Assembly (NCBI RefSeq): GCF_004402785.1
Contig: NZ_SOFP01000072.1
Coordinates: 496-64,495, forward strand
Direction of reading: 5' to 3'
Length of the DNA: 64,000 bases
Source: Cryobacterium algoritolerans
GTDB lineage: Bacteria; Actinomycetota; Actinomycetes; Actinomycetales; Microbacteriaceae
This document shows, in pieces, positions 1 through 21,417 of the stretch. The translations under genes and the position numbers were made by a program. Under the pieces are notes generated by a model. That model was not told where the DNA came from, ran no database searches, and saw only the letters and a list, made by a program, of their open reading frames with translations. The first letter of the stretch is position 1, and each line of letters opens with the position of its first letter.

Positions 1-3
1 CCG

Positions 4-123
4 GGTGGTCGAGCTCGTTGAGACCGGGTGGTCGAGCTCGTCGAGACCCGGCGGTCAAGCCCGTCAAGACCCGGTCGTCGAGCCCGTCGAGACCCGGGTG
101 GGATCTCGACAGGCTCGATCACC
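4..123. repeat. Short palindromic repeat cluster (GGTGGTCGAGCTCGTTGAGACC family)
   Basis: Four direct copies of a 22-24 base unit of the form GGTGGTCGAGCTCGTYGAGACC lie at about 4-25, 27-48, 50-72 and 73-95. A fifth, inverted copy lies at 99-123. Copies 3 and 4 diverge at several positions. The unit has dyad symmetry (GGTctcGAC / GTCgagACC). Relatives of the same sequence recur at 21450-21612, at the other end of the flagellar cluster. From memory, repeats of this type are scattered between genes in many Microbacteriaceae. A role as a bidirectional terminator or REP-like element is inference. Confidence 0.75.
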
Positions 124-221
124 GCAGCGAAGCATCCGCCAGTGGCCCCCAGAATGAGGCACACCGCCCAGTGAAACAGCGGGATCGCGCAGCCCCGCAC
201 TATTTCTTCCTAAGAATCCCC

Positions 222-248
222 TTACTTTGCTAACGCGGTGGTCGATAG
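222..248 (+). promoter_or_regulatory. Sigma-28-like promoter of the flgB operon
   Basis: TTAC (222-225), a 15-base spacer, then GTCGATAG (241-248). The FliA/SigD/WhiG consensus is TAAA-N15-GCCGATAA. Two further copies of the same design precede flbD-motA and fliM, which makes chance unlikely. Transcription would start near 255, leaving a leader of about 68 bases before the GTG of flgB. Not experimentally shown. Confidence 0.55.
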
Positions 249-322
249 CAAGGAACGAGCAGGGATAGCTCAACCTCAGGCCACGGATCGGCCGTCTTCA
301 TTTGACGACGAATCGGGAAACC

Positions 323-664
323 GTGCTTGAATCCGTGACCGCCACCGCGCTATCCAGCGCCCTGGACGGACTGGCCCTGCGCCAGCGCACCATCGCGAAC
401 AACATCGCCAACGTGAACACCCCGAACTACCACGCCAAGCGCGTCGCATTCGAGGCTGCCCTGGCCAAGTCGGTCGCAGCGGGCGACGGTCGCACGAATG
501 CGACGACCGCAAGCTCGCTCGAGCCCACCCGCCTCGACGGCAACAACGTCAACCTCGACACCGAGACCCTCTCCAACACCGAGACGGTGCTGCGCTACCA
601 GTTCGCGGCCCAGGCCGTCAACAACCCGTTCAGCGCGATGCGCGCCGCGATGCGGACCAACTGA
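323..664 (+). CDS. flgB: Flagellar basal-body rod protein FlgB
   Basis: Proximal rod subunit, exported by the flagellar type III system and built on the MS ring/FliE. The GTG start at 323 gives 113 residues beginning MLESVTATAL, the usual FlgB length and N-terminus; an in-frame TTG at 302 would add seven atypical residues. The rod/hook signature NNIANVNTP is at residues 26-34, and the helical C-terminus ends AMRAAMRTN. First gene of the long flagellar operon; flgC starts 13 bases after its stop. A sigma-28-like promoter lies 75 bases upstream. Confidence 0.93.
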   Translation: MLESVTATALSSALDGLALRQRTIANNIANVNTPNYHAKRVAFEAALAKSVAAGDGRTNATTASSLEPTRLDGNNVNLDTETLSNTETVLRYQFAAQAVNNPFSAMRAAMRTN

Positions 665-677
665 TGGGCGCGCATTC

Positions 678-1070
678 ATGAGCATCGACGCGATCGGCAT
701 CGCCGGCACCGGCCTCACCCTGCACCGCAAGTGGCTCGACGCGGTCGCCGACAACATCGCCAACGTCAACACGGTCACCCCCACCAGCGGCAAGGCCTTC
801 CAGGCCCGCTACATCGTCGCCCAGGAGGGCCAGGGCGTCACCGGCGCCTACGTCTCCGGCACCGCGCTCGGCTCGGAGACGGGCATCCTCGCCTCCGACC
901 CCAGCAACCCGCTCGCGGATGCCAACGGCAACGTTCGTCGCCCCGACATCGACCTCGGCGAGCAGATGGGCGAACTGATCATGGCCCAGCGCGGCTACCA
1001 GGCCAACGCCGCCGTCGTCGACCGCGCCAAGACCAGCTACGAAGCAGCACTTCAGATCGGACGTGGCTGA
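678..1070 (+). CDS. flgC: Flagellar basal-body rod protein FlgC
   Basis: Second proximal rod protein, 130 residues. The ATG at 678 was chosen because it puts the rod motif DNIANVNT at residues 25-32, as in other FlgC proteins; the same frame stays open upstream but overlaps flgB and is not FlgC-like. The C-terminal half carries MGELIMAQRGYQANA, the conserved coiled-coil region shared by rod and hook proteins. Its stop codon overlaps the fliE start (ATGA), so translation is probably coupled. Confidence 0.95.
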   Translation: MSIDAIGIAGTGLTLHRKWLDAVADNIANVNTVTPTSGKAFQARYIVAQEGQGVTGAYVSGTALGSETGILASDPSNPLADANGNVRRPDIDLGEQMGELIMAQRGYQANAAVVDRAKTSYEAALQIGRG

Positions 1071-1375
1071 TGACCATCGGCGCAATCCCCGCTGTTCAGT
1101 CAGTGGCTGGCACCGGCTACCTGCCCGGCGTGCAAAACAGCCAGCCCACCGACGGTGCGAGCTTCGGCTCCGCCCTCGCCGGCGCCGTCGACAACCTGCA
1201 GGCTTTGCAGTCCACCTCCAATACCCTCGCGGTGCAGGCGGTCACCGGAAACCTCAACGACATCCACGCCGCGACGATCGCGTCGACCAGGGCGCAGGTC
1301 TCCCTTGAACTGGTCGCAGCGGTGCGTAACAAGGGTGTCGACGCGTTCAACGAGATCATGAGGATGCAGGCCTGA
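1070..1375 (+). CDS. fliE: Flagellar hook-basal body protein FliE
   Basis: Adaptor between the MS ring and the rod and one of the first type III flagellar substrates. It has 101 residues. The C-terminus (VSLELVAAVRNKGVDAFNEIMRMQ) has the conserved FliE shape ending in a QMxV-like helix. The ATG overlaps the flgC stop, and the TGA overlaps the ATG of fliF. The flgB-flgC-fliE-fliF order is the standard early flagellar arrangement. Confidence 0.93.
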   Translation: MTIGAIPAVQSVAGTGYLPGVQNSQPTDGASFGSALAGAVDNLQALQSTSNTLAVQAVTGNLNDIHAATIASTRAQVSLELVAAVRNKGVDAFNEIMRMQA

Positions 1376-2988
1376 TGCCCCGCCCCATTACGTCGGTCTT
1401 CGCCAACATCGCTCGCAACATCCGTGAATTCACCGTCGCCCAGCGCACGGTCGCCATCATCGGGGTCGCCGTGCTCGCGCTCGGCATTGCCGCCCTCACC
1501 ATGTGGGCCAGTAAGCCGGCCTACACGCCCCTGTTCTCCGGTCTCAGCGGCTCCGACGCGAACACCATCGTCGACCAGTTGCGCACCGACAGCGTGCCCT
1601 ACGAGCTCAGCGACGGCGGCGCCACGATCATGGTGCCGCAGGAGAACGTCTACGACGAACGCCTCAAGAGCGCCGCGGCCGGCCTGCCCTCCTCGAGCAC
1701 CGGCGGCTACTCGCTGCTCGACAAGATGGGCGTCACCGCCTCCGAGTTCCAGCAGTCGGTCACCTACAAGCGGGCGCTCGAGGGCGAACTGGCCAACACG
1801 GTCCAGGCCATGAAGGGTGTCAAGACCGCGTCCGTGCGTCTTGCGATCCCCAAGGACACAGTGTTCGCGTCGGAGAAGACCGACCCCACCGCATCCGTCT
1901 TCGTCGAAACGCAGGCCGGCGTCACCCTCAACTCCGACCAGGTGCAGGCGATCGTGCACCTGACCAGCGCGTCCATCGACGGCATGAAGCCCACCGACGT
2001 GGCCGTCATCGACGCCAAGGGTGTCGTGCTCTCCGCCGTCGGCGTCGGCGCCACCGGCTCCGCGGACCAGCAGGCCGGCGACTACGAGCAGCGCGTGCGC
2101 GGCGCCGTCCAGGCCATGCTCGACAAGGTGGTCGGGCCCGGCAACGCCACCGTCGTCGTCGCCGCCGACATGAGCACCCAGTCCGCACAGCGGGTCGAAG
2201 AATCCTTCACCACCCCCACGAACACGCCCACGCTCAACGAGGCCGTCAAGACCGAGACCTACTCGGGTGCCGGTGCCAGCGGCGCCGCGGCCGGCGTTCT
2301 CGGGCCAGACAACATCGCCGTTCCTGCCGGAACCGGCAAGGACGGCTCCTTCACCTCCGCCGACACCACCAAGAACAACGCGGTCAACAAAGTCACCGAA
2401 ACCCGCACCATCCCGGCCGGCCAGATCAACCGCCAGACCGTCTCGGTCGCGGTGAACGCCGACGCCGTCGGCAAGCTCAATGTGTCCGACGTCACCTCCC
2501 TGGTCTCCTCCGCCGCCGGAATCGACGCCAAGCGTGGCGACGCCGTCACGGTCGAGGTCGTCAGCTTCAACGCCGCCGGTGCCACGGATGCCGCCACCGC
2601 CCTCAAGGCCGCCGACGCCTCGGCAGCGGCCGACCGCTTCTCGGAGATCCTGCGCATCGGCATCATCACCGCCGGCATCGTCATCACCTTCGTGCTCGGC
2701 CTCATCCTCTATGCCCGTCGCTCGCGCCGGCAGAGCCGCGAAGCGATCGAGCTCGACGAGCTGATCGAGGCCCGCCCGGTGCTCGCCGCGGCGAACGTCC
2801 CGTTCGGGATCACCGCCCAGAACAGTCCGATCATGATCGACCCGACCCCCACGGTCGCCTACGGCGTCAGCGGAGCCACCGGCGAAGCCGACCGGATGCG
2901 GGTCGAGATCGATTCCCTCGCCCAGCGTGACCCGGCCCGCACCGCCGAGTTCCTGCGCGGCCTGATGGATGACCGGCAGCCCGCATGA
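1375..2988 (+). CDS. fliF: Flagellar MS-ring protein FliF
   Basis: 537-residue membrane protein that forms the MS ring, the base on which rod, switch and export gate assemble. An N-terminal membrane segment lies at about residues 25-45 and a second at about 425-447, followed by basic ARRSRRQS. Between them are the periplasmic ring-building domains, with the typical YTPLFSGLS near residue 50. The cytoplasmic tail ends in ARTAEFLRGLMDD, the FliG-binding segment. Full length for the family. Overlaps fliE by one base and fliG by four. Confidence 0.96.
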   Translation: MPRPITSVFANIARNIREFTVAQRTVAIIGVAVLALGIAALTMWASKPAYTPLFSGLSGSDANTIVDQLRTDSVPYELSDGGATIMVPQENVYDERLKSAAAGLPSSSTGGYSLLDKMGVTASEFQQSVTYKRALEGELANTVQAMKGVKTASVRLAIPKDTVFASEKTDPTASVFVETQAGVTLNSDQVQAIVHLTSASIDGMKPTDVAVIDAKGVVLSAVGVGATGSADQQAGDYEQRVRGAVQAMLDKVVGPGNATVVVAADMSTQSAQRVEESFTTPTNTPTLNEAVKTETYSGAGASGAAAGVLGPDNIAVPAGTGKDGSFTSADTTKNNAVNKVTETRTIPAGQINRQTVSVAVNADAVGKLNVSDVTSLVSSAAGIDAKRGDAVTVEVVSFNAAGATDAATALKAADASAAADRFSEILRIGIITAGIVITFVLGLILYARRSRRQSREAIELDELIEARPVLAAANVPFGITAQNSPIMIDPTPTVAYGVSGATGEADRMRVEIDSLAQRDPARTAEFLRGLMDDRQPA

Positions 2989-4614: not shown

Positions 4615-5936
4615 CCCTCACCTGGCAGCCGCAGGCCGCCAGGCTCGGCTCGGCCCTGGCCGCTGCCCGGCCGCAGCGCGTCGGCGTCGTCTCCTCCATC
4701 GTCGGCCTCGGCCTCGAGGTGCGCGGCCTCAACTGCGCCATCGGCGACCTGGTCACCATCGGCGAGCACGGCGAAGTCGACGCGGAAGTGGTCGCAACGA
4801 CCCGTGAGGGCATCCGGTGCATGCCGCTGGGACGGATGACCGGCATCCGCGTCGGTGCCCCGGCCCGCTCGGACGGCGCCCCCGACTTCGTGCCGACCGG
4901 CAGGGGCCTCTTCGGCCGGGTCATCGACGGCCTCGGCCGCCCGATCGACGGCAAAGGCCCGCTCGTCGTCGCCGGCCGGGTCTCCCTCGACCACGACAGC
5001 CCCTCTGCCATGGCGCGCTCTCGCATCGTCACGCCCCTCCAGCTCGGTGTGCGCGTGCTCGACACCCTCACCACGGTTGGCAAGGGCCAGCGGATGGGCC
5101 TGTTCGCCGGCTCGGGCGTCGGCAAGTCGTCGCTTCTCTCCATGATCGCCCGTGGCACCGACGCCGAAGTGTCCGTCATCGCCCTGGTGGGGGAGCGCGG
5201 CCGCGAGGTGCGCGAGTTCCTCGAGGACGACCTCGGCCCGGAGGGCCTGGCCCGCTCGATCGTCGTGGTCTCCACCTCCGACGAACCGGCCATGATGCGC
5301 CTGCGCGCGGCCTTCGTGGCCACCCGGATCGCGGAGTCGTTCCGGGACCAGGGCGCCGACGTCATGCTGATGATGGACTCACTCACCCGCGTGGCCATGG
5401 CCCAGCGCGAAATCGGCCTGTCGGTCGGCGAGCCGCCGGCCACCCGGGGCTACCCACCCTCCACGTTCTCCCTCCTCGCCCGGCTGCTCGAGCGCGCCGG
5501 CACCGACGAGGCCGGCTCGATCACCGGCGTCTACACGGTCCTTGTCGACGGCGACGACCACAACGAGCCGATTGCGGACGCCGCCAGGTCCATCCTCGAC
5601 GGCCACGTCGTGCTCGACCGCAAGCTCGCGGTGCTCGGCCACTTCCCCTCCGTCGACGCCCTCGCCTCGATATCCCGGGTGGCCTCACGGGTCAACAACC
5701 CGCACCAGAACGAGGTCGCCGGCATGCTGCGCAAGGTGCTCGCCGCCCGCCGCAACGCCCAGGACCTGCTCGACGTGGGTGCCTACCGCACCGGCACGAA
5801 CCCGCTGGTCGACGCCGCGGTGGCCCACGAGGGCGCGATCAACGCCTTCCTCCAGCAGCGCATGGACGACCAGACCCCGGCAGCCCTCGCCTGGGACCAG
5901 CTCACCGCCCTCACCGGGCAACTCGGAGGCTTCTGA
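4611..5936 (+). CDS. fliI: Flagellum-specific ATP synthase FliI
   Basis: Hexameric ATPase of the flagellar type III export apparatus. 441 residues. Walker A GSGVGKSS is at about residues 167-174, followed by ALVGERGREVREF, the F-ATPase-beta-like signature. The Walker B region (MLMMDSLTRVAMAQREIG) is near residue 253, with SVGEPPATRGYPPS just after it, a diagnostic export-ATPase string. Starts by a four-base overlap with fliH; the stop overlaps fliJ by one base. Confidence 0.97.
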   Translation: MTLTWQPQAARLGSALAAARPQRVGVVSSIVGLGLEVRGLNCAIGDLVTIGEHGEVDAEVVATTREGIRCMPLGRMTGIRVGAPARSDGAPDFVPTGRGLFGRVIDGLGRPIDGKGPLVVAGRVSLDHDSPSAMARSRIVTPLQLGVRVLDTLTTVGKGQRMGLFAGSGVGKSSLLSMIARGTDAEVSVIALVGERGREVREFLEDDLGPEGLARSIVVVSTSDEPAMMRLRAAFVATRIAESFRDQGADVMLMMDSLTRVAMAQREIGLSVGEPPATRGYPPSTFSLLARLLERAGTDEAGSITGVYTVLVDGDDHNEPIADAARSILDGHVVLDRKLAVLGHFPSVDALASISRVASRVNNPHQNEVAGMLRKVLAARRNAQDLLDVGAYRTGTNPLVDAAVAHEGAINAFLQQRMDDQTPAALAWDQLTALTGQLGGF

Positions 5937-6370
5937 TGGCACGCACCTTCGCCCTCGCCGGACTGCTTCGGCTGCGTCACCTGCAGCAGGACCAGGCCGC
6001 CGGCGACCTTGCCGCCGCCAACGCCGCCGCCCGGGCGAACACCCTGCGCCGGGCACACGCCCGGGCCGCCCTCGAGGTGCTGCCGAGCAACGTCACCGGC
6101 CCGGAGACGCTCTATGCGGTCGCCGCGGCACGGGCCTCCTCCCGCAGCATGCTCTCCGAGATGGATGCCCTCGGCCGCAATTACCAGACGGCCGTCGGCG
6201 AGGCGCAGGCCGCCTACGATGCCACCCGCGCGGAGTCGGTGAGCCTCGAGAAGCTCGAGGGCCGGCACGGCCAGGCGGTCGCCGCCGAAGACCTGCACGC
6301 CGAACAGACCATCCTCGACGAGATCGCCTCCACTTCCTGGCACCGCAACCGCAAGGGCCTGCTCCAATGA
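5936..6370 (+). CDS. fliJ: Flagellar export protein FliJ
   Basis: 144-residue coiled-coil protein, identified mainly by position after fliI, by length and by composition. It is rich in Ala/Arg/Glu with heptad-like helices (LRLRHLQQDQAAGDLAAANA and YDATRAESVSLEKLEGRHG) and has the typical basic tail. In characterised systems FliJ is the stalk of the FliI ATPase and an escort for chaperones. The ATG at 5936 overlaps the fliI stop, and the gene ends four bases into the next CDS. Confidence 0.85.
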   Translation: MARTFALAGLLRLRHLQQDQAAGDLAAANAAARANTLRRAHARAALEVLPSNVTGPETLYAVAAARASSRSMLSEMDALGRNYQTAVGEAQAAYDATRAESVSLEKLEGRHGQAVAAEDLHAEQTILDEIASTSWHRNRKGLLQ

Positions 6371-7008
6371 CGATGGTGGCGATGCTGAGCCGGGTCAGCG
6401 ACATCCGTGCCACCCTGGATCAGCTCTCGAGCGTGGTCGCCCCCACGAAGTCGACGGCCACGACCGCCGCGGGCAGCGTGTCGTCGAGCACGTTCGCGGA
6501 TGCCCTGGCCTCCGCCTCCGCCTCCGGCCCCGCCCAGGCCGGCACGGTCACCGCGAACCCCGGCAGCGCGACCGGCGCCGGGGTGGTGAAGGCCGCGGAG
6601 AAGTACCTCGGCGTTCCTTATGTCTTCGGCGGCGAAGACCGGAGCGGCATGGACTGCTCCGGACTCGTGCAGAAGGTCTACGCGGACATGGGCATCGCGG
6701 TGCCGCGCCTCGTCTCCGGCCAGATGAAGATCGGCACCGAGGTTGCCTCGTTGGCCGAGGCCAAACCGGGCGACCTCATCGTCACCGGCGGCGGCGACCA
6801 CATCCTCATCTACGCCGGCGACCACAAGGTCATCCACGCGCCATACGAGGGCCGCACGGTCAGCAAGGTCGAGGCCTACATGGACGACTCCGAGATCACC
6901 ACGATCCGCCGCGTCATCCCCGATGTCCCGGCGGCCACGAGCACGGCAGGCACGACCGACCTCGTCACCGCGGCCTTCGCCAAGCTGATGAAGGGCGGTT
7001 CCCGATGA
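6367..7008 (+). CDS. NlpC/P60 (C40) peptidoglycan hydrolase within the flagellar operon
   Basis: 213 residues: an Ala/Ser/Thr-rich N-terminus of about 70 residues without a clear signal peptide, then an NlpC/P60 domain. The catalytic triad is visible as Cys97 in GMDCSGLVQ, His145 in GGDHILIYAG and His157 in HAPY. NlpC/P60 enzymes usually cut D-glutamyl-meso-DAP or equivalent peptide bonds in the wall. It overlaps fliJ and fliK by four bases each, so it is a true operon member. The likely job is local opening of the thick wall for the rod, a task done by the FlgJ muramidase in Proteobacteria. Lack of a Sec signal suggests export through the flagellar channel; that is inference. Confidence 0.88.
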   Translation: MTMVAMLSRVSDIRATLDQLSSVVAPTKSTATTAAGSVSSSTFADALASASASGPAQAGTVTANPGSATGAGVVKAAEKYLGVPYVFGGEDRSGMDCSGLVQKVYADMGIAVPRLVSGQMKIGTEVASLAEAKPGDLIVTGGGDHILIYAGDHKVIHAPYEGRTVSKVEAYMDDSEITTIRRVIPDVPAATSTAGTTDLVTAAFAKLMKGGSR

Positions 7009-9206: not shown

Positions 9207-10397
9207 ATGCTTCGTTCCCTGTACTCCGGCATCTCCGGCCTTCGCTCGCACCAGACCATGCTCGACGTCACCGGCAACAACATCGCCAACGTCAACACCA
9301 CCGCGTTCAAGGCCTCGGCCACCCAGTTCCAGGACACCCTCTCGCAGCTGAGCCAGGGTGCCGGCGGCCCGCAGGCCGAGGTCGGCGGCACCAACCCGGC
9401 CCAGGTCGGACTCGGCGTCAAGGTGGCCGGCATCTCCACCAACTTCGCCCAGGGCTCCTCGCAGGCCACTGGCAAGGCCACCGACATCATGATCTCGGGC
9501 GACGGATTCTTCGTCACCCAGCTCGGCGGCGAAACCCTCTACAGCCGGGCCGGCGCATTCGACTTCGACGCCCAGGGCCGCCTGGTCTCGCCGGCCGGCG
9601 CGATCGTGCAGGGCTGGAACGGCGTCAAGGGAGTCATCAACCAGGGCGGTGCCATCGGCAACATCACCCTGCCGCTGCAGTCGATCATCCCGGCGAACCC
9701 GACAAAGAATGCGCTCATGGGTGGCAACCTGCCGTCCGACGCTGTGGTTGGCACTGCTCTCCTTCGCGACGTGAAGATCTACGACGCATCCGGTGCCCCC
9801 AGCACTCTGTCGCTCACCTTCACAAATGCCGGCGCGGGCGCCTGGAACGTGTCGGGCGTCGCTGGCGGCGCGACTGCGACGCAAACTCTCTCCTTCACAG
9901 GGGGCAAGCAGACCCCTCCTGCGGCTGACCTGATGGTCGTCACCGCAACCGGTGACAACGTGAAGGTCGAGTTGGGCAAGCTCGAGGGCTTCGCCGGGCT
10001 CACCACCGCCACGATCAACTCGCAGGACGGCGCCGCCGCCGGCACGCTCCAGTCCTTCACTCTCGGCAAGGACGGCACCCTGGTGGGCCTGTTCAGCAAC
10101 GGCGGACAGGCATCCATCGGCCGGATCGCCCTCGCCACCTTCGCCAACCCGGGCGGACTCGAGAAGGCCGGCTCCTCCGAGTACCGCGCCACCTTCAACT
10201 CCGGCAACGCCGCCCTCGGCGCCCCCGGCAGTGGCGGCCTCGGCTCGCTCACGGGGGGAGCGCTCGAGATGTCGAACGTCGACCTCTCTCAGGAGTTCAC
10301 GAACCTGATCGTCGCCCAGCGCGGCTTCCAGGCCAACGCCCGCATCATCACCACCTCGGACGAGGTTCTGCAGGAGCTCACCAACCTCAAGCGGTAG
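9207..10397 (+). CDS. flgE: Flagellar hook protein FlgE (FlgE/FlgF/FlgG family)
   Basis: 396 residues. The N-terminus MLRSLYSGISGL ... NNIANVNTTAFK is the shared hook/distal-rod signature; the C-terminus has GALEMSNVDLSQEFTNLIVAQRGFQANARII, the complementary coiled-coil part. The middle (about 150-330) is the hook-specific variable domain, making FlgE more likely than the shorter FlgF/FlgG. AGAAAGG precedes the ATG. It is the only rod/hook-family gene in the window besides flgB and flgC. An 85-base gap before it and a 243-base gap after it make this one of the few well-spaced genes in the cluster. Confidence 0.92.
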   Translation: MLRSLYSGISGLRSHQTMLDVTGNNIANVNTTAFKASATQFQDTLSQLSQGAGGPQAEVGGTNPAQVGLGVKVAGISTNFAQGSSQATGKATDIMISGDGFFVTQLGGETLYSRAGAFDFDAQGRLVSPAGAIVQGWNGVKGVINQGGAIGNITLPLQSIIPANPTKNALMGGNLPSDAVVGTALLRDVKIYDASGAPSTLSLTFTNAGAGAWNVSGVAGGATATQTLSFTGGKQTPPAADLMVVTATGDNVKVELGKLEGFAGLTTATINSQDGAAAGTLQSFTLGKDGTLVGLFSNGGQASIGRIALATFANPGGLEKAGSSEYRATFNSGNAALGAPGSGGLGSLTGGALEMSNVDLSQEFTNLIVAQRGFQANARIITTSDEVLQELTNLKR

Positions 10398-10565: not shown

Positions 10566-10592
10566 TAACGGCCGGGGCACGGCGACCGACAG
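10566..10592 (+). promoter_or_regulatory. Sigma-28-like promoter for flbD-motA-motB
   Basis: TAAC (10566-10569), 15 bases, ACCGACAG (10585-10592). Spacing is identical to the motifs before flgB and fliM, with a TAAC box and an RCCGA(T/C)AG box. The predicted start is near 10599, about 40 bases before the flbD ATG. The rest of the 243-base flgE-flbD gap shows only the possible terminator and no open frame. Confidence 0.55.
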
Positions 10593-10640: not shown

Positions 10641-10952
10641 ATGATCGTTGTGACGCGGCTGAACGGCAGCCAGTTTGCGATCAACCCCGATCTGATCGAG
10701 CGCATCCACGCAAGCCCCGACACCACCCTGGTGATGGTCGACGGTGCCAAGTTCATCGTCACGGAGGGCCTCGAAGAGGTGATCGAGAAGATCGCCCGCT
10801 TCCGAGCCCACGTTATCTCCCTCGCCTACCTCACCTCGGACGCCGATTACAGCACCGGCGCCAGACCGCTCGAAATCGTCAGCGGTCCGCACGCGATCGA
10901 AGACCCTACCCAGCCGGGCGGCGCGCTGCCCCACCGACCGCGGAGGCTCTGA
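10641..10952 (+). CDS. flbD: FlbD-family flagellar protein
   Basis: 103 residues from ATG 10641. The N-terminal 60 residues fit the small FlbD family found next to motA in Gram-positive flagellar operons: MIVVTRLNGSQFAINPDLIERI, then TTLVMVDGAKFIV and EEVIEKIARFR. The C-terminus is longer than usual and ends basic (PHRPRRL). Function is not established; a role in flagellar assembly or swarming has been suggested for homologues. This is unrelated to the Caulobacter response regulator of the same name. Its stop overlaps the motA start. Confidence 0.85.
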   Translation: MIVVTRLNGSQFAINPDLIERIHASPDTTLVMVDGAKFIVTEGLEEVIEKIARFRAHVISLAYLTSDADYSTGARPLEIVSGPHAIEDPTQPGGALPHRPRRL

Positions 10953-11761
10953 TGGATCCCGCAACCCTGATCGGCATCGCTCTCGCCTTCGGCTCGCTCT
11001 TCGCCATGATCACGATCGAGGGTGGCCATGTCTCCTCGATCCTGCTGCCTGCCCCGATGGTGCTCGTCTTCGGCGCCACCATCGCAGTCGGCATCGCCGG
11101 AGGAACGATCCGCGACGCGATCTCGGCGTTCAAGGCCGTGCCCGGCGCCTTCGTCGGCAGGACCACCCCGCCGCAGCAGGTCATCGACCAGATCGTCGGT
11201 TTGGCCGAGAAGGCCCGCAGCGCCGGCCTGCTCGCCCTCGAGCAGGAGGCCGACAACGTCGACGACCCTTTCCTGCGCGGCGCCCTGCAGAACATCGCCG
11301 ACGGCACCGACGGTGACGAACTGCGCATCCTGCTCGAAGACGAGCTGGCCACCCGGACCAAGGCCAGCCGCAACGCCGCCAAGTTCTTCACCAGCCTCGG
11401 CGGCTATGCGCCCACCGTCGGCATCATCGGCACCGTCATCTCCCTGACCCACGTGCTCGAGAAGCTCGACACGCCCTCGACCCTCGGCCCTCTGATCGCG
11501 GCCGCCTTCGTCGCCACCCTCTGGGGTCTCCTCTCCGCGAACTTCCTCTGGCTGCCGATCGGCAACCGGCTCAAGCGCCTCTCCGACATCGAGGTCGAGC
11601 GGATGACGCTCCTGCTCGAGGGTGCCCTCGCGGTGCAGGCTGGAAGCCAGCCTCGCCTCCTCGGCGAACGACTGCGAGCCATGGTGCCGGCGGAATCCTC
11701 CAAGTCGACGAAGGCGGGCAAGACAGACAAGGCGGCCAAGTCCCTGCCCAAGGCGGCGTGA
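10952..11761 (+). CDS. motA: Flagellar motor stator protein MotA
   Basis: 269 residues from ATG 10952. Four membrane segments: two near residues 3-50 (IGIALAFGSLFAMITIEGG, VLVFGATIAVGIAG) and two at about 150-205 (GYAPTVGIIGTVISLTHVLE, GPLIAAAFVATLWGLLSANF). Between them is the cytoplasmic loop that contacts FliG, with charged residues RTKASRN. It forms the ion channel with MotB. The C-terminal tail is Lys/Ala-rich (SKSTKAGKTDKAAKS). The stop overlaps the GTG of motB. Confidence 0.95.
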   Translation: MDPATLIGIALAFGSLFAMITIEGGHVSSILLPAPMVLVFGATIAVGIAGGTIRDAISAFKAVPGAFVGRTTPPQQVIDQIVGLAEKARSAGLLALEQEADNVDDPFLRGALQNIADGTDGDELRILLEDELATRTKASRNAAKFFTSLGGYAPTVGIIGTVISLTHVLEKLDTPSTLGPLIAAAFVATLWGLLSANFLWLPIGNRLKRLSDIEVERMTLLLEGALAVQAGSQPRLLGERLRAMVPAESSKSTKAGKTDKAAKSLPKAA

Positions 11762-12747
11762 GCGGGCACGGCCGGGGGCGCGGCCGCAGCCGGAGCCTCG
11801 AAGAGGAACACGTCGAGCACGTCGATGAGCGCTGGATGGCGTCCTATATGGACATGGTCACCGTGCTGATGTGCATGTTCATCGTGCTGTTCGCCATGTC
11901 ATCGGTCGACCAGTCCAAGTTCGTGCAGCTGAAGAACTCTCTCGCGACCGGTTTCGGCGCCACCGACGTCGGCAAGGTCGACACGGCCAAGGGCGTCATC
12001 GTCACAAAAGAGAAGGCCAAACAGGGCGAAGCGACCGGTCTCACCGACCTGCAGTTGGCGACGTCGGAGGTCGGCAAACTCAAAGCGGCCCGGAAGTCCC
12101 TGCAGGATGCCGTGGATGCCAAGGGCATCGGCAGCCAGGTGCAGTTTGTCATTGATTCCCGCGGCCTCACGGTCGGCCTGATCGGTTCCGAGGCGTTCTT
12201 CGCCCCGAACCTCGCTGACCTCAGTGCCCAGGCGGTACAGGTGCTTGACACGATCGCGCCGATCCTCGCTGCCCAGCCCAACGAGGTGAAGATCGAGGGC
12301 CACGCCGACCGGCATGGCGTCACGGTCAACTTCCCGACCGACTGGGAGCTCTCCTCCGGCCGGGCGACGGCGGTGCTGCGCCGGCTGGTCGAGTTCGGCG
12401 CAATCGCGCAGGAACGCATTTCGGCCGTCGGCTACGGTTCGGCCAGGCCGGTTGCGACCGGTACCGAGCTCGCCGCGATGGCGCAAAACCGCCGGGTCGA
12501 CGTGGTCATGCTCTCCAGCCAGCCGGAGGCCGTCCGTTCGCTGATCCCGTCGGTGCTGGACGGAACGGCCCTCAATCCCGCACCCGCAGCGTCAGCCGAT
12601 CCTGCCGCGGTGCCCGCTGCGGTGCCTGCCGCGGTGCCTGCCGCGGTGCCCGCGGCATCCGCCGATTCGACCACGACCACCACAAAAACCGCGACGTCCA
12701 CCACGACCACCACGACGGGGAAGACCACCGCGAAGACCGGACACTGA
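11758..12747 (+). CDS. motB: Flagellar motor stator protein MotB
   Basis: 329 residues, GTG start overlapping the motA stop. After a short basic/acidic N-terminus, the single membrane helix starts at SYMDMVTVLMCMFIVLF; the ion-binding aspartate falls at Asp32, as in E. coli. An OmpA-like peptidoglycan-binding domain is at about residues 150-250 (VKIEGHADRHGV, LSSGRATAVLRRL, VGYGSARPV). The last 60 residues are a low-complexity PAAV/Thr/Lys tail. No fliL follows, although fliL usually sits here. Whether protons or sodium ions are used cannot be told from this. Confidence 0.95.
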   Translation: MSGHGRGRGRSRSLEEEHVEHVDERWMASYMDMVTVLMCMFIVLFAMSSVDQSKFVQLKNSLATGFGATDVGKVDTAKGVIVTKEKAKQGEATGLTDLQLATSEVGKLKAARKSLQDAVDAKGIGSQVQFVIDSRGLTVGLIGSEAFFAPNLADLSAQAVQVLDTIAPILAAQPNEVKIEGHADRHGVTVNFPTDWELSSGRATAVLRRLVEFGAIAQERISAVGYGSARPVATGTELAAMAQNRRVDVVMLSSQPEAVRSLIPSVLDGTALNPAPAASADPAAVPAAVPAAVPAAVPAASADSTTTTTKTATSTTTTTTGKTTAKTGH

Positions 12748-12797: not shown

Positions 12798-12824
12798 TAA
12801 CGCGCGCAGTTCGGCGACCGATAG
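12798..12824 (+). promoter_or_regulatory. Sigma-28-like promoter directly before fliM
   Basis: TAAC (12798-12801), exactly 15 bases, ACCGATAG (12817-12824), six of eight matches to GCCGATAA. The GTG of fliM is at 12833, so a start 6-8 bases after the -10 box would give a leaderless or nearly leaderless fliM mRNA. There is no convincing ribosome binding site in front of the GTG, which fits. Confidence 0.6.
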
Positions 12825-12832
12825 TCGTTGTC

Positions 12833-13741
12833 GTGACGGTCCAGGAACAAGCAGTGATTGGTGTGCCCGCTTCGGCGGCGCGCACGGTCGAGGTGTACGA
12901 CTTTCGTCGCCCGACAACCCTCGCCCGCGAGCACTCCCGCGTTTTGGAACTCGCCTTCGAGACCTTCGCCCGCCAGTGGGGTACCCAGCTCACCGCCAAG
13001 GTTCGGGTGCTCTCGCAGGTGACCTGTGACAGCGTGATCATGCGCAGCTACGACGAGTACGCGTCATCTCTTCCGGCGACGACGGCGATGGTGCTCTGCC
13101 CGGTCACCGGGTTCAGCGCCAAGGCCGTCATCCAGTTCCCCGCGGCCGCCGCGCTGTCCTGGGTGAGCCACATGCTCGGCGGCTCGGGCAGCACATCCGC
13201 CCCCGAACGCACCTTCACCCAGATCGAACAGGCGCTCGTGCGGCGGCTGATGGACGACGCCCTCGAGGACTTGCGCTACTGCCTCGGTGCCCTGCTCGTC
13301 GCGCCGATCGTGGTCGGGGGTATCCAGTACAACTCGCAGTTCGCCCAGGCCGCGGCCACCGGCGACCTGATGATCGTCGCGACCTTCTCCATGCGGGTCG
13401 GCGAATCGACCGCCACCGCGACCCTCGCCCTCCCGGCCGACACGCTTCTGCCCCAGCTCGGTGAGACGAACCCGACCAGCAACGCCGGAAACCCGGAAGA
13501 TCTCCTGCACGCACAGCTCGCCTGGGTGCCGGTGGACGTCGCCCTGCAGCTCACACCGATCCGCGTGTTGCCGAGCGTCATCCTGGGCCTGGCGGTCGGG
13601 GACGTCCTCTCCATTTCCCATTCCAAGCACCGCCCGCTCGACGTTGTCGTCGACGGCCAGCCGCTCGCACGCGCCGCCGTTGGTTCCAACGGCTCCCGCC
13701 TGGCCTGCATCGTCATCGACACCGAGGAGACCTTCGCATGA
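12833..13741 (+). CDS. fliM: Flagellar motor switch protein FliM
   Basis: 302 residues, GTG start. The middle (GTQLTAKVRVLSQVTCDSV, then ALSWVSHMLGGSGS) is the CheC-like FliM domain, and the C-terminus (VDVALQLTPIRVLPSVILGLAVGDVLSISH) is the SPOA domain that pairs with FliN. The usual N-terminal CheY-binding segment LSQxEIDALL is missing: the protein starts with VQEQAVIGVPASAARTVEVY. A stop at 12779 and the absence of upstream start codons show it was not missed by a late start call. Overlaps fliN by four bases. Confidence 0.92.
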   Translation: MTVQEQAVIGVPASAARTVEVYDFRRPTTLAREHSRVLELAFETFARQWGTQLTAKVRVLSQVTCDSVIMRSYDEYASSLPATTAMVLCPVTGFSAKAVIQFPAAAALSWVSHMLGGSGSTSAPERTFTQIEQALVRRLMDDALEDLRYCLGALLVAPIVVGGIQYNSQFAQAAATGDLMIVATFSMRVGESTATATLALPADTLLPQLGETNPTSNAGNPEDLLHAQLAWVPVDVALQLTPIRVLPSVILGLAVGDVLSISHSKHRPLDVVVDGQPLARAAVGSNGSRLACIVIDTEETFA

Positions 13742-21156: not shown

Positions 21157-21417
21157 GTGCTGGTACTTACACGCAAACAGGGGGAGAAGATCCTCATTGG
21201 TGACGACATCGTCATCACCATTCTCGACGTGCGAGGCGACAGCATCCGAATCGGAATCGACGCCCCCCGCGGCGTCGGAATCCAGCGCGACGAGGTCGTG
21301 CGTGCGGTCACCGAGGCGAACATCTCCGCCAGCCACGCCGACAGCGACGCCGAGGCCCGGATCAAGGCGACACTCGGCCTCCTCGCTCCCGGCACGCCCC
21401 CGGCTCCCGCTCCGTAG
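21157..21417 (+). CDS. csrA: Translational regulator CsrA
   Basis: 86 residues, GTG start nine bases after the flhF-like stop. The first 55 residues are a clear CsrA: LVLTRKQGEKILIGDDIVITI and IRIGIDAPRGVGIQRDEV. The RNA-binding residues are the Leu4-Arg6 strand and the GVxIQRDEV-type strand, although Val/His choices differ from Gammaproteobacteria. A 30-residue tail ends in APGTPPAPAP. CsrA at the end of a flagellar cluster usually represses flagellin translation until FliW titrates it (known from Bacillus). The partner fliW is not in the window. Confidence 0.95.
   Translation: MLVLTRKQGEKILIGDDIVITILDVRGDSIRIGIDAPRGVGIQRDEVVRAVTEANISASHADSDAEARIKATLGLLAPGTPPAPAP

Follow-up and report, generated by a model that had tools for sequence, protein, structure and literature searches.

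Three flagellar transcription units of Cryobacterium algoritolerans are very probably transcribed by RNA polymerase carrying the genome's own FliA (sigma-28), from promoters of which two lie inside the operon and whose −35 box follows a dialect that goes with a changed recognition helix in this sigma factor. The three sites lie in a 64,000-nucleotide stretch of the genome, the window (contig NZ_SOFP01000072.1, positions 496 to 64,495). P1 would start the flgB operon, P2 and P3 would restart transcription at flbD-motA-motB and at fliM onward, and the flagellin and flgN-flgK-flgL-fliW units, on either side of the sigma gene, would use the same FliA promoter. Computation shows the sites themselves, with an occurrence above chance, conservation and a flagellar link, as well as the sigma gene and the agreement between helix and dialect.

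Table 1 Promoter sites, leader elements and genes; positions are those of the window unless another locus is named.
Feature	Position	Strand	Remarks
P1, sigma-28-type promoter TTAC-N15-GTCGATAG	222–248	+	upstream of flgB; conserved in related loci
P2, promoter TAAC-N15-ACCGACAG	10566–10592	+	upstream of flbD-motA-motB
P3, promoter TAAC-N15-ACCGATAG	12798–12824	+	upstream of fliM and export genes
flgB leader element 1, GAGC(AGGGATA)GCTC	257–271	+	CsrA-site-like ANGGA in loop; formed in predicted fold
flgB leader element 2, GGCC(ACGGATC)GGCC	279–293	+	CsrA-site-like ANGGA in loop; absent from minimum-energy fold
flgB	323–664	+	first operon gene; start about 323 (GTG 323 or TTG 326); NCBIfam FlgB 78.2 bits, over cut-off
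flgE	9207–10397	+	last gene ahead of P2 gap; profile match
flbD	10641–10952	+	Pfam FlbD 84.4 bits
motA	10952–11761	+	profile match
motB	11758–12747	+	profile match
fliM	12833–13741	+	start GTG 12833 or GTG 12854; profile match
csrA	21157–21417	+	downstream within flagellar gene run; Pfam CsrA 76.9 bits
Flagellin-leader ANGGA hairpin	L037 3978–3991	-	resembles Bacillus hag CsrA site

The first-pass annotation had reported the three motifs and placed each at a real gap of the operon. Re-reading of the sequence found all three exact and the gaps as described: P1 precedes flgB, P2 falls between the end of the flgE open reading frame and flbD, and P3 falls between the end of the motB reading frame and either possible GTG start of fliM, the second of which (12854) has a Shine–Dalgarno-like AGGA upstream. 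The genes in Table 1 were assigned by profile; flgC, fliE, fliF, fliH, fliJ, fliK, flgD and the genes past fliM were named by order and look only. The same gene run also holds an NlpC/P60 domain protein (6367–7008; 77.4 bits), perhaps a wall hydrolase for passage of the rod or flagellum, and a 23-nt direct-repeat array (GGTGGTCGAGCTCGTTGAGACCG) lies directly upstream of the flagellar operon (window 1–115; L038 362–600, contig C69).

The flagellar sigma consensus for FliA/SigD/WhiG (sigma-28) promoters is TAAA / GCCGATAA, as given in PMC8325347. Spacing N15 is common to all five flagellar sites of the genome. Their −35 box is TAAC at four sites and TTAC at P1, so the TAAC sites keep three of the four textbook bases and TAAA itself is met at none. 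The −10 boxes are close to the textbook GCCGATAA, reading GCCGATAG at fliC and flgN, ACCGATAG at P3, ACCGACAG at P2 and GTCGATAG at P1, with G as the last base. Of the five, the flgB site (TTAC, GTCGATAG) and the flbD site (TAAC, ACCGACAG), each matching the consensus at 10/12, are weakest; they appear convincing mainly through their conservation.

Counting both strands, the window has three matches to the pattern TNAC-N15-RYCGAYAG, against a mean of 0.18 and a maximum of 1 in 100 dinucleotide shuffles. The textbook pattern TAAA-N15-GCCGATAA, scanned over the window with three mismatches, gave 14 matches against 7.5 expected, and recovered just P3 among the three sites. A palindrome, CCCCANAATGGGG, had one match in the window with one mismatch, which is within chance.

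Across the assembly (3.7 Mb in 87 contigs), the loose pattern had 17 matches and its reversed control 8. Flagellar genes follow five of the 17, which are P1 to P3 and a further pair on contig C40, upstream of fliC and of flgN-flgK, where the first-pass annotation had proposed that such a scan might find further sites. The narrower TAAC-N15-RCCGAYAG had four matches in 3.7 Mb, all before flagellar genes. Exact copies of TAAC-N15-GCCGATAG numbered two (flagellin and flgN), and one mismatch added two more, at fliM and at C56:68802, the latter without a known flagellar link; with up to two mismatches the search became poorer and uninformative (109 matches against 161 for the reversed control).

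A probable FliA/WhiG-type sigma gene, of the kind that the annotation had suggested looking for, is present on contig C40 between flagellin and flgN. The order there is fliS, fliD, flagellin, a site and fliA leftward, then a site, flgN, flgK, flgL and fliW rightward, so that fliA is flanked by two copies of the promoter. Its product matched the NCBIfam model FliA_WhiG best, at 119.9 bits, under the curated cut-off of 189.6, and E. coli FliA, WhiG and Aquifex sigma-28 come nearest to it among solved chains. We infer that this factor reads the sites, and likewise infer the transcription-start positions. Three CCCC-N5/6-GGGG dyads, about 20 nt apart, lie 205 to 246 nt ahead of fliA (L037, about 5063–5118) as a candidate site for a regulator of fliA; Cryobacterium sinapicolor likewise has three, and 10 further loci of the 30 have at least one.

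Chemotaxis genes, also proposed as targets, did not bear out: the genome has no match to the MCP signalling domain (PF00015), and its two matches to CheW (PF01584) are both below cut-off. It thus carries flagellar genes and no recognizable chemosensory system, which fits the 14 of 69 flagellated actinobacterial species reported to lack one (PMC10746217).

We asked how the promoter word is distributed in the family, using 120 genomes, 38 with motA and 82 without. Exact TAAC-N15-GCCGATAG occurred in 36 of the 38 motA-bearing genomes (84 copies; G016 and G063 have motA and lack the word), against 3 genomes with 3 copies among the 82 without motA (Fisher p 1.1e-24); the reversed control gave 4 and 11 copies, respectively. 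Seventy-one of the 84 copies shared a contig with motA and lay no more than 26 kb from it, 2 were farther away and 11 were on other contigs.

Position was examined in 80 named loci around FliI (flgB found in 75, flbD in 48 and fliM in 43), with the window as an extra; the FliI of the window has 90% and 88% identity to two Cryobacterium records. The sites before flgB, flbD-motA and fliM hold their position in related genera. In the TAAC group, whose genera were grouped by hand after the per-locus site results were seen, sites of at least 10/12 at N15 or N16 were found in 53/54 flgB, 30/31 flbD and 27/27 fliM regions; control spacings occasionally reach 10/12 as well, with means per spacing of 6.2/54, 1.4/31 and 3.5/27. 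Among the flgB regions of this group, N15 occurred in 44 of 54 and N16 in 11 of 54. FliA was found in 31/31 genomes searched, and 24 of the 30 loci returned were TAAC-type; a site lies 59–64 nt ahead of flagellin in 20 of these 24, and the other 4 are without a detected flagellin start. Microbacterium showed TTAC-N16-CGCGATAG, read by eye, at flgB (4/4) and flbD (3/3), and the same word was not seen at fliM. Promicromonosporaceae-like loci carry CCAC-N15 sites upstream of fliC and flgN (4/4, the fliC ones weak), in two loci as CCAC-N15-RYCGASAG before both genes, and no site was found there before flgB, flbD or fliM. Micrococcales-like flagellar clusters also turned up in records titled Vibrio cholerae 35D (L149), Sphaerisporangium cinnabarinum (L137) and Acidobacteria MAG (L175), which are probably mislabelled or contaminated.

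The 12 loose genome matches without a known flagellar link are close in number to the reversed control's 8, as they would be if the three matches in the window were accidents of a GC-rich operon. Against the 0.18 expected in the window, the family-wide link to motA and the conserved position, we consider such an accident so improbable that we reject it. The conservation and the flagellar link would also be compatible with a bipartite site for a flagellar activator or repressor, transcription coming from a promoter of another type. We think this very unlikely, as both halves, their order and N15 match the flagellar sigma consensus in PMC8325347 save for the fourth −35 and last −10 base, the sites are always oriented toward the gene, and a probable FliA-type sigma gene lies between two of them. 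Sigma-28-type promoters, as first claimed, are supported by the excess over chance, the conservation and the flagellar link, and the claim of middle promoters inside the export and motor operon is upheld by the conserved sites at flbD and fliM.

We then turned to the sigma factor itself. Its region 4.2 helix has the sequence THSAVSQQR, where E. coli FliA has ESRVSQLH and WhiG ESRVSQIH. A class-wide search of 394 genomes gave 53 with a FliA match of at least 188 bits; flagellin was searched in 51 of these and matched in 46. Including the named loci, the set comprised 77 FliA proteins, 65 with a flagellin start and 12 without a usable one. Ten of the 65 pairs fall outside the tally: three SA rows (all TAAC, with a weaker −10), two SR rows and five rows with other helices. 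SA-type helices with a clear −10 (24 of 27 rows) went with TAAC in 22 and TTAC in 2. SR-type helices with a clear −10 (31 of 33 rows) went with TCAG in 18, TCAA in 8, TCAT in 3, TAAA in 1 and TCAC in 1, the last at N17 and probably misplaced. The −35 word thus appears to track the recognition helix, SR-type helices going with TCAN and H[SA]A.SQ.R helices with TWAC. With the five other-helix rows assigned by eye and G243 (N17) excluded, the state of helix position 2 (His/Arg or not) agreed with that of −35 position 4 (C or not) in 59/59 rows.

These data suggest how the dialect may be read. A gap-free alignment with the genome's SigA puts His201 of FliA opposite the leading arginine of VTRERIRQ, the place of sigma-70 Arg584. 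According to PMC2613000, Arg584 touches the template base at −31, and R584A favours A:T over C:G there. Because of this alignment with a reader of C:G at −31, His201 would be the likeliest reader of the fourth −35 base pair, C:G. In E. coli FliA and in WhiG, with their TAAA consensus, the equivalent residue is Glu. The rule seen with Arg584 covers both states: C:G where the residue is positive, and A, G or T where it is Glu, Asp, Gln or Leu. In this branch of the Micrococcales, a group of soil and ice bacteria, the 4.2 helix has the form HSAVSQQR where SR.SQ is commoner, and the −35 box is TWAC where TCAN is otherwise found.

Real sigma-28 promoters could also have acquired their −35 dialect by drift or phylogenetic inheritance, unrelated to the FliA helix. 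Helix and dialect each switch a single time on a quick FliA tree computed with the helix columns removed, giving a single independent pair and no significance; there is thus no independent repeat of the coupling, and the tree lends it no statistical support. Set against this are the agreement of all 59 rows (five assigned by eye), the alignment of the changed residue with Arg584, which is reported to contact the matching base pair and, as R584A, to prefer A:T there (PMC2613000), and the Glu at that place in E. coli FliA and WhiG alongside a TAAA consensus. We see drift or inheritance as a serious possibility, somewhat short of an even one. The 'local dialect' of a flagellar sigma factor, as the first-pass annotation worded it, is supported; the helix change that accompanies it was outside that annotation's view.

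The promoters resemble FliA/SigD/WhiG promoters in the two boxes, the same spacing, the GCCGAT core, the late flagellar targets and the probable FliA/WhiG-type sigma gene, but differ in the fourth −35 base (C, not A), the last −10 base (G, not A), the altered helix, the inclusion of the flgB, flbD-motA and fliM units and the failure to find FlgM. Flagellar genes of Actinoplanes are directed by WhiG-like sigma factors (PMC8325347), and Actinoplanes missouriensis is reported, in papers citing Jang 2016 and Hashiguchi 2020, to have a similar actinobacterial flagellar cluster under WhiG/FliA-type factors, three FliA factors in that species; the large class genomes of family f24 show SR helices with TCAG.

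The transcripts themselves may carry a further layer of control. Two ANGGA elements follow P1 in the flgB leader; in the predicted fold of this single leader (z −0.57) hairpin 1 formed and hairpin 2 did not. Across 76 flgB leaders, the window included, at least one ANGGA element was present in 74 and at least two in 70, 144 in total, against a mean of 1.2 and a largest count of 4 in shuffles and 0 on the opposite strand; in 70 of the 76 the elements are in tandem, 21–25 nt apart. No covariation was found in the element cores, and it lends them no support because the core stems hardly vary. A DNA dyad is less likely there than an RNA hairpin, since the asymmetric ANGGA and the lack of opposite-strand matches favour RNA. 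Rfam gave no match up to E 5 in window positions 1–1400. The flbD and fliM leaders are mostly without such elements (8/49 and 0/44, respectively).

Flagellin leaders of the class genomes carry an ANGGA hairpin in 33 of 39 cases (36 elements in total, shuffle mean 0.7), and here base pairs 2 to 7 of the stem show compensatory changes. The fliW gene of the flgN operon matched Pfam FliW at 82.5 bits, over the cut-off, as did csrA its own model. With csrA and fliW in the regulon and ANGGA elements in the leaders, a CsrA/FliW checkpoint may act on two of its transcripts, those of the flgB operon and flagellin. The anti-sigma factor FlgM (PF04316) is not recognizable in the genome, where a search up to E 1 gave no match, and none of 51 further genomes with FliA matched at E 0.01, against 3 over the cut-off among 14 controls; a strongly diverged FlgM could have escaped these searches.

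The likeness is to the Hag-FliW-CsrA switch of Bacillus subtilis (PMC6529632), which shares csrA, fliW and the ANGGA hairpin in the flagellin leader, with ANGGA at the Shine–Dalgarno of the flagellin mRNA in many leaders here. There are two differences: here the leader of the flgB operon has another element, in tandem, and no FlgM was found, a protein that in Bacillus acts beside CsrA. The literature searched, few subscription journals among it, showed no report of the TAAC dialect or of a flgB leader element. Put at its fullest, the proposal is that an entire sigma-28 regulon took on a new promoter word (TCAN to TWAC) along with its sigma helix (Glu/Asp/Gln to His at the Arg584 place), and that it has an actinomycete checkpoint without FlgM, in which regulon-encoded CsrA and FliW would gate the flgB operon through its tandem ANGGA leader and flagellin through its own hairpin. 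We offer this combination tentatively, as rather less likely than not.

Taken as real sigma-28-type promoters with a testable change of specificity, and with suggestive signs of a post-transcriptional layer, the sites provide a working promoter word for the flagellar genes of Cryobacterium, Arthrobacter, Curtobacterium, Leifsonia and relatives, in which a scan with the textbook consensus is unspecific. They raise the question of how flagellum assembly is timed in actinomycetes without a recognizable FlgM, and may be a naturally occurring example of joint change in the specificity of promoters and their sigma factor, with one residue to test.
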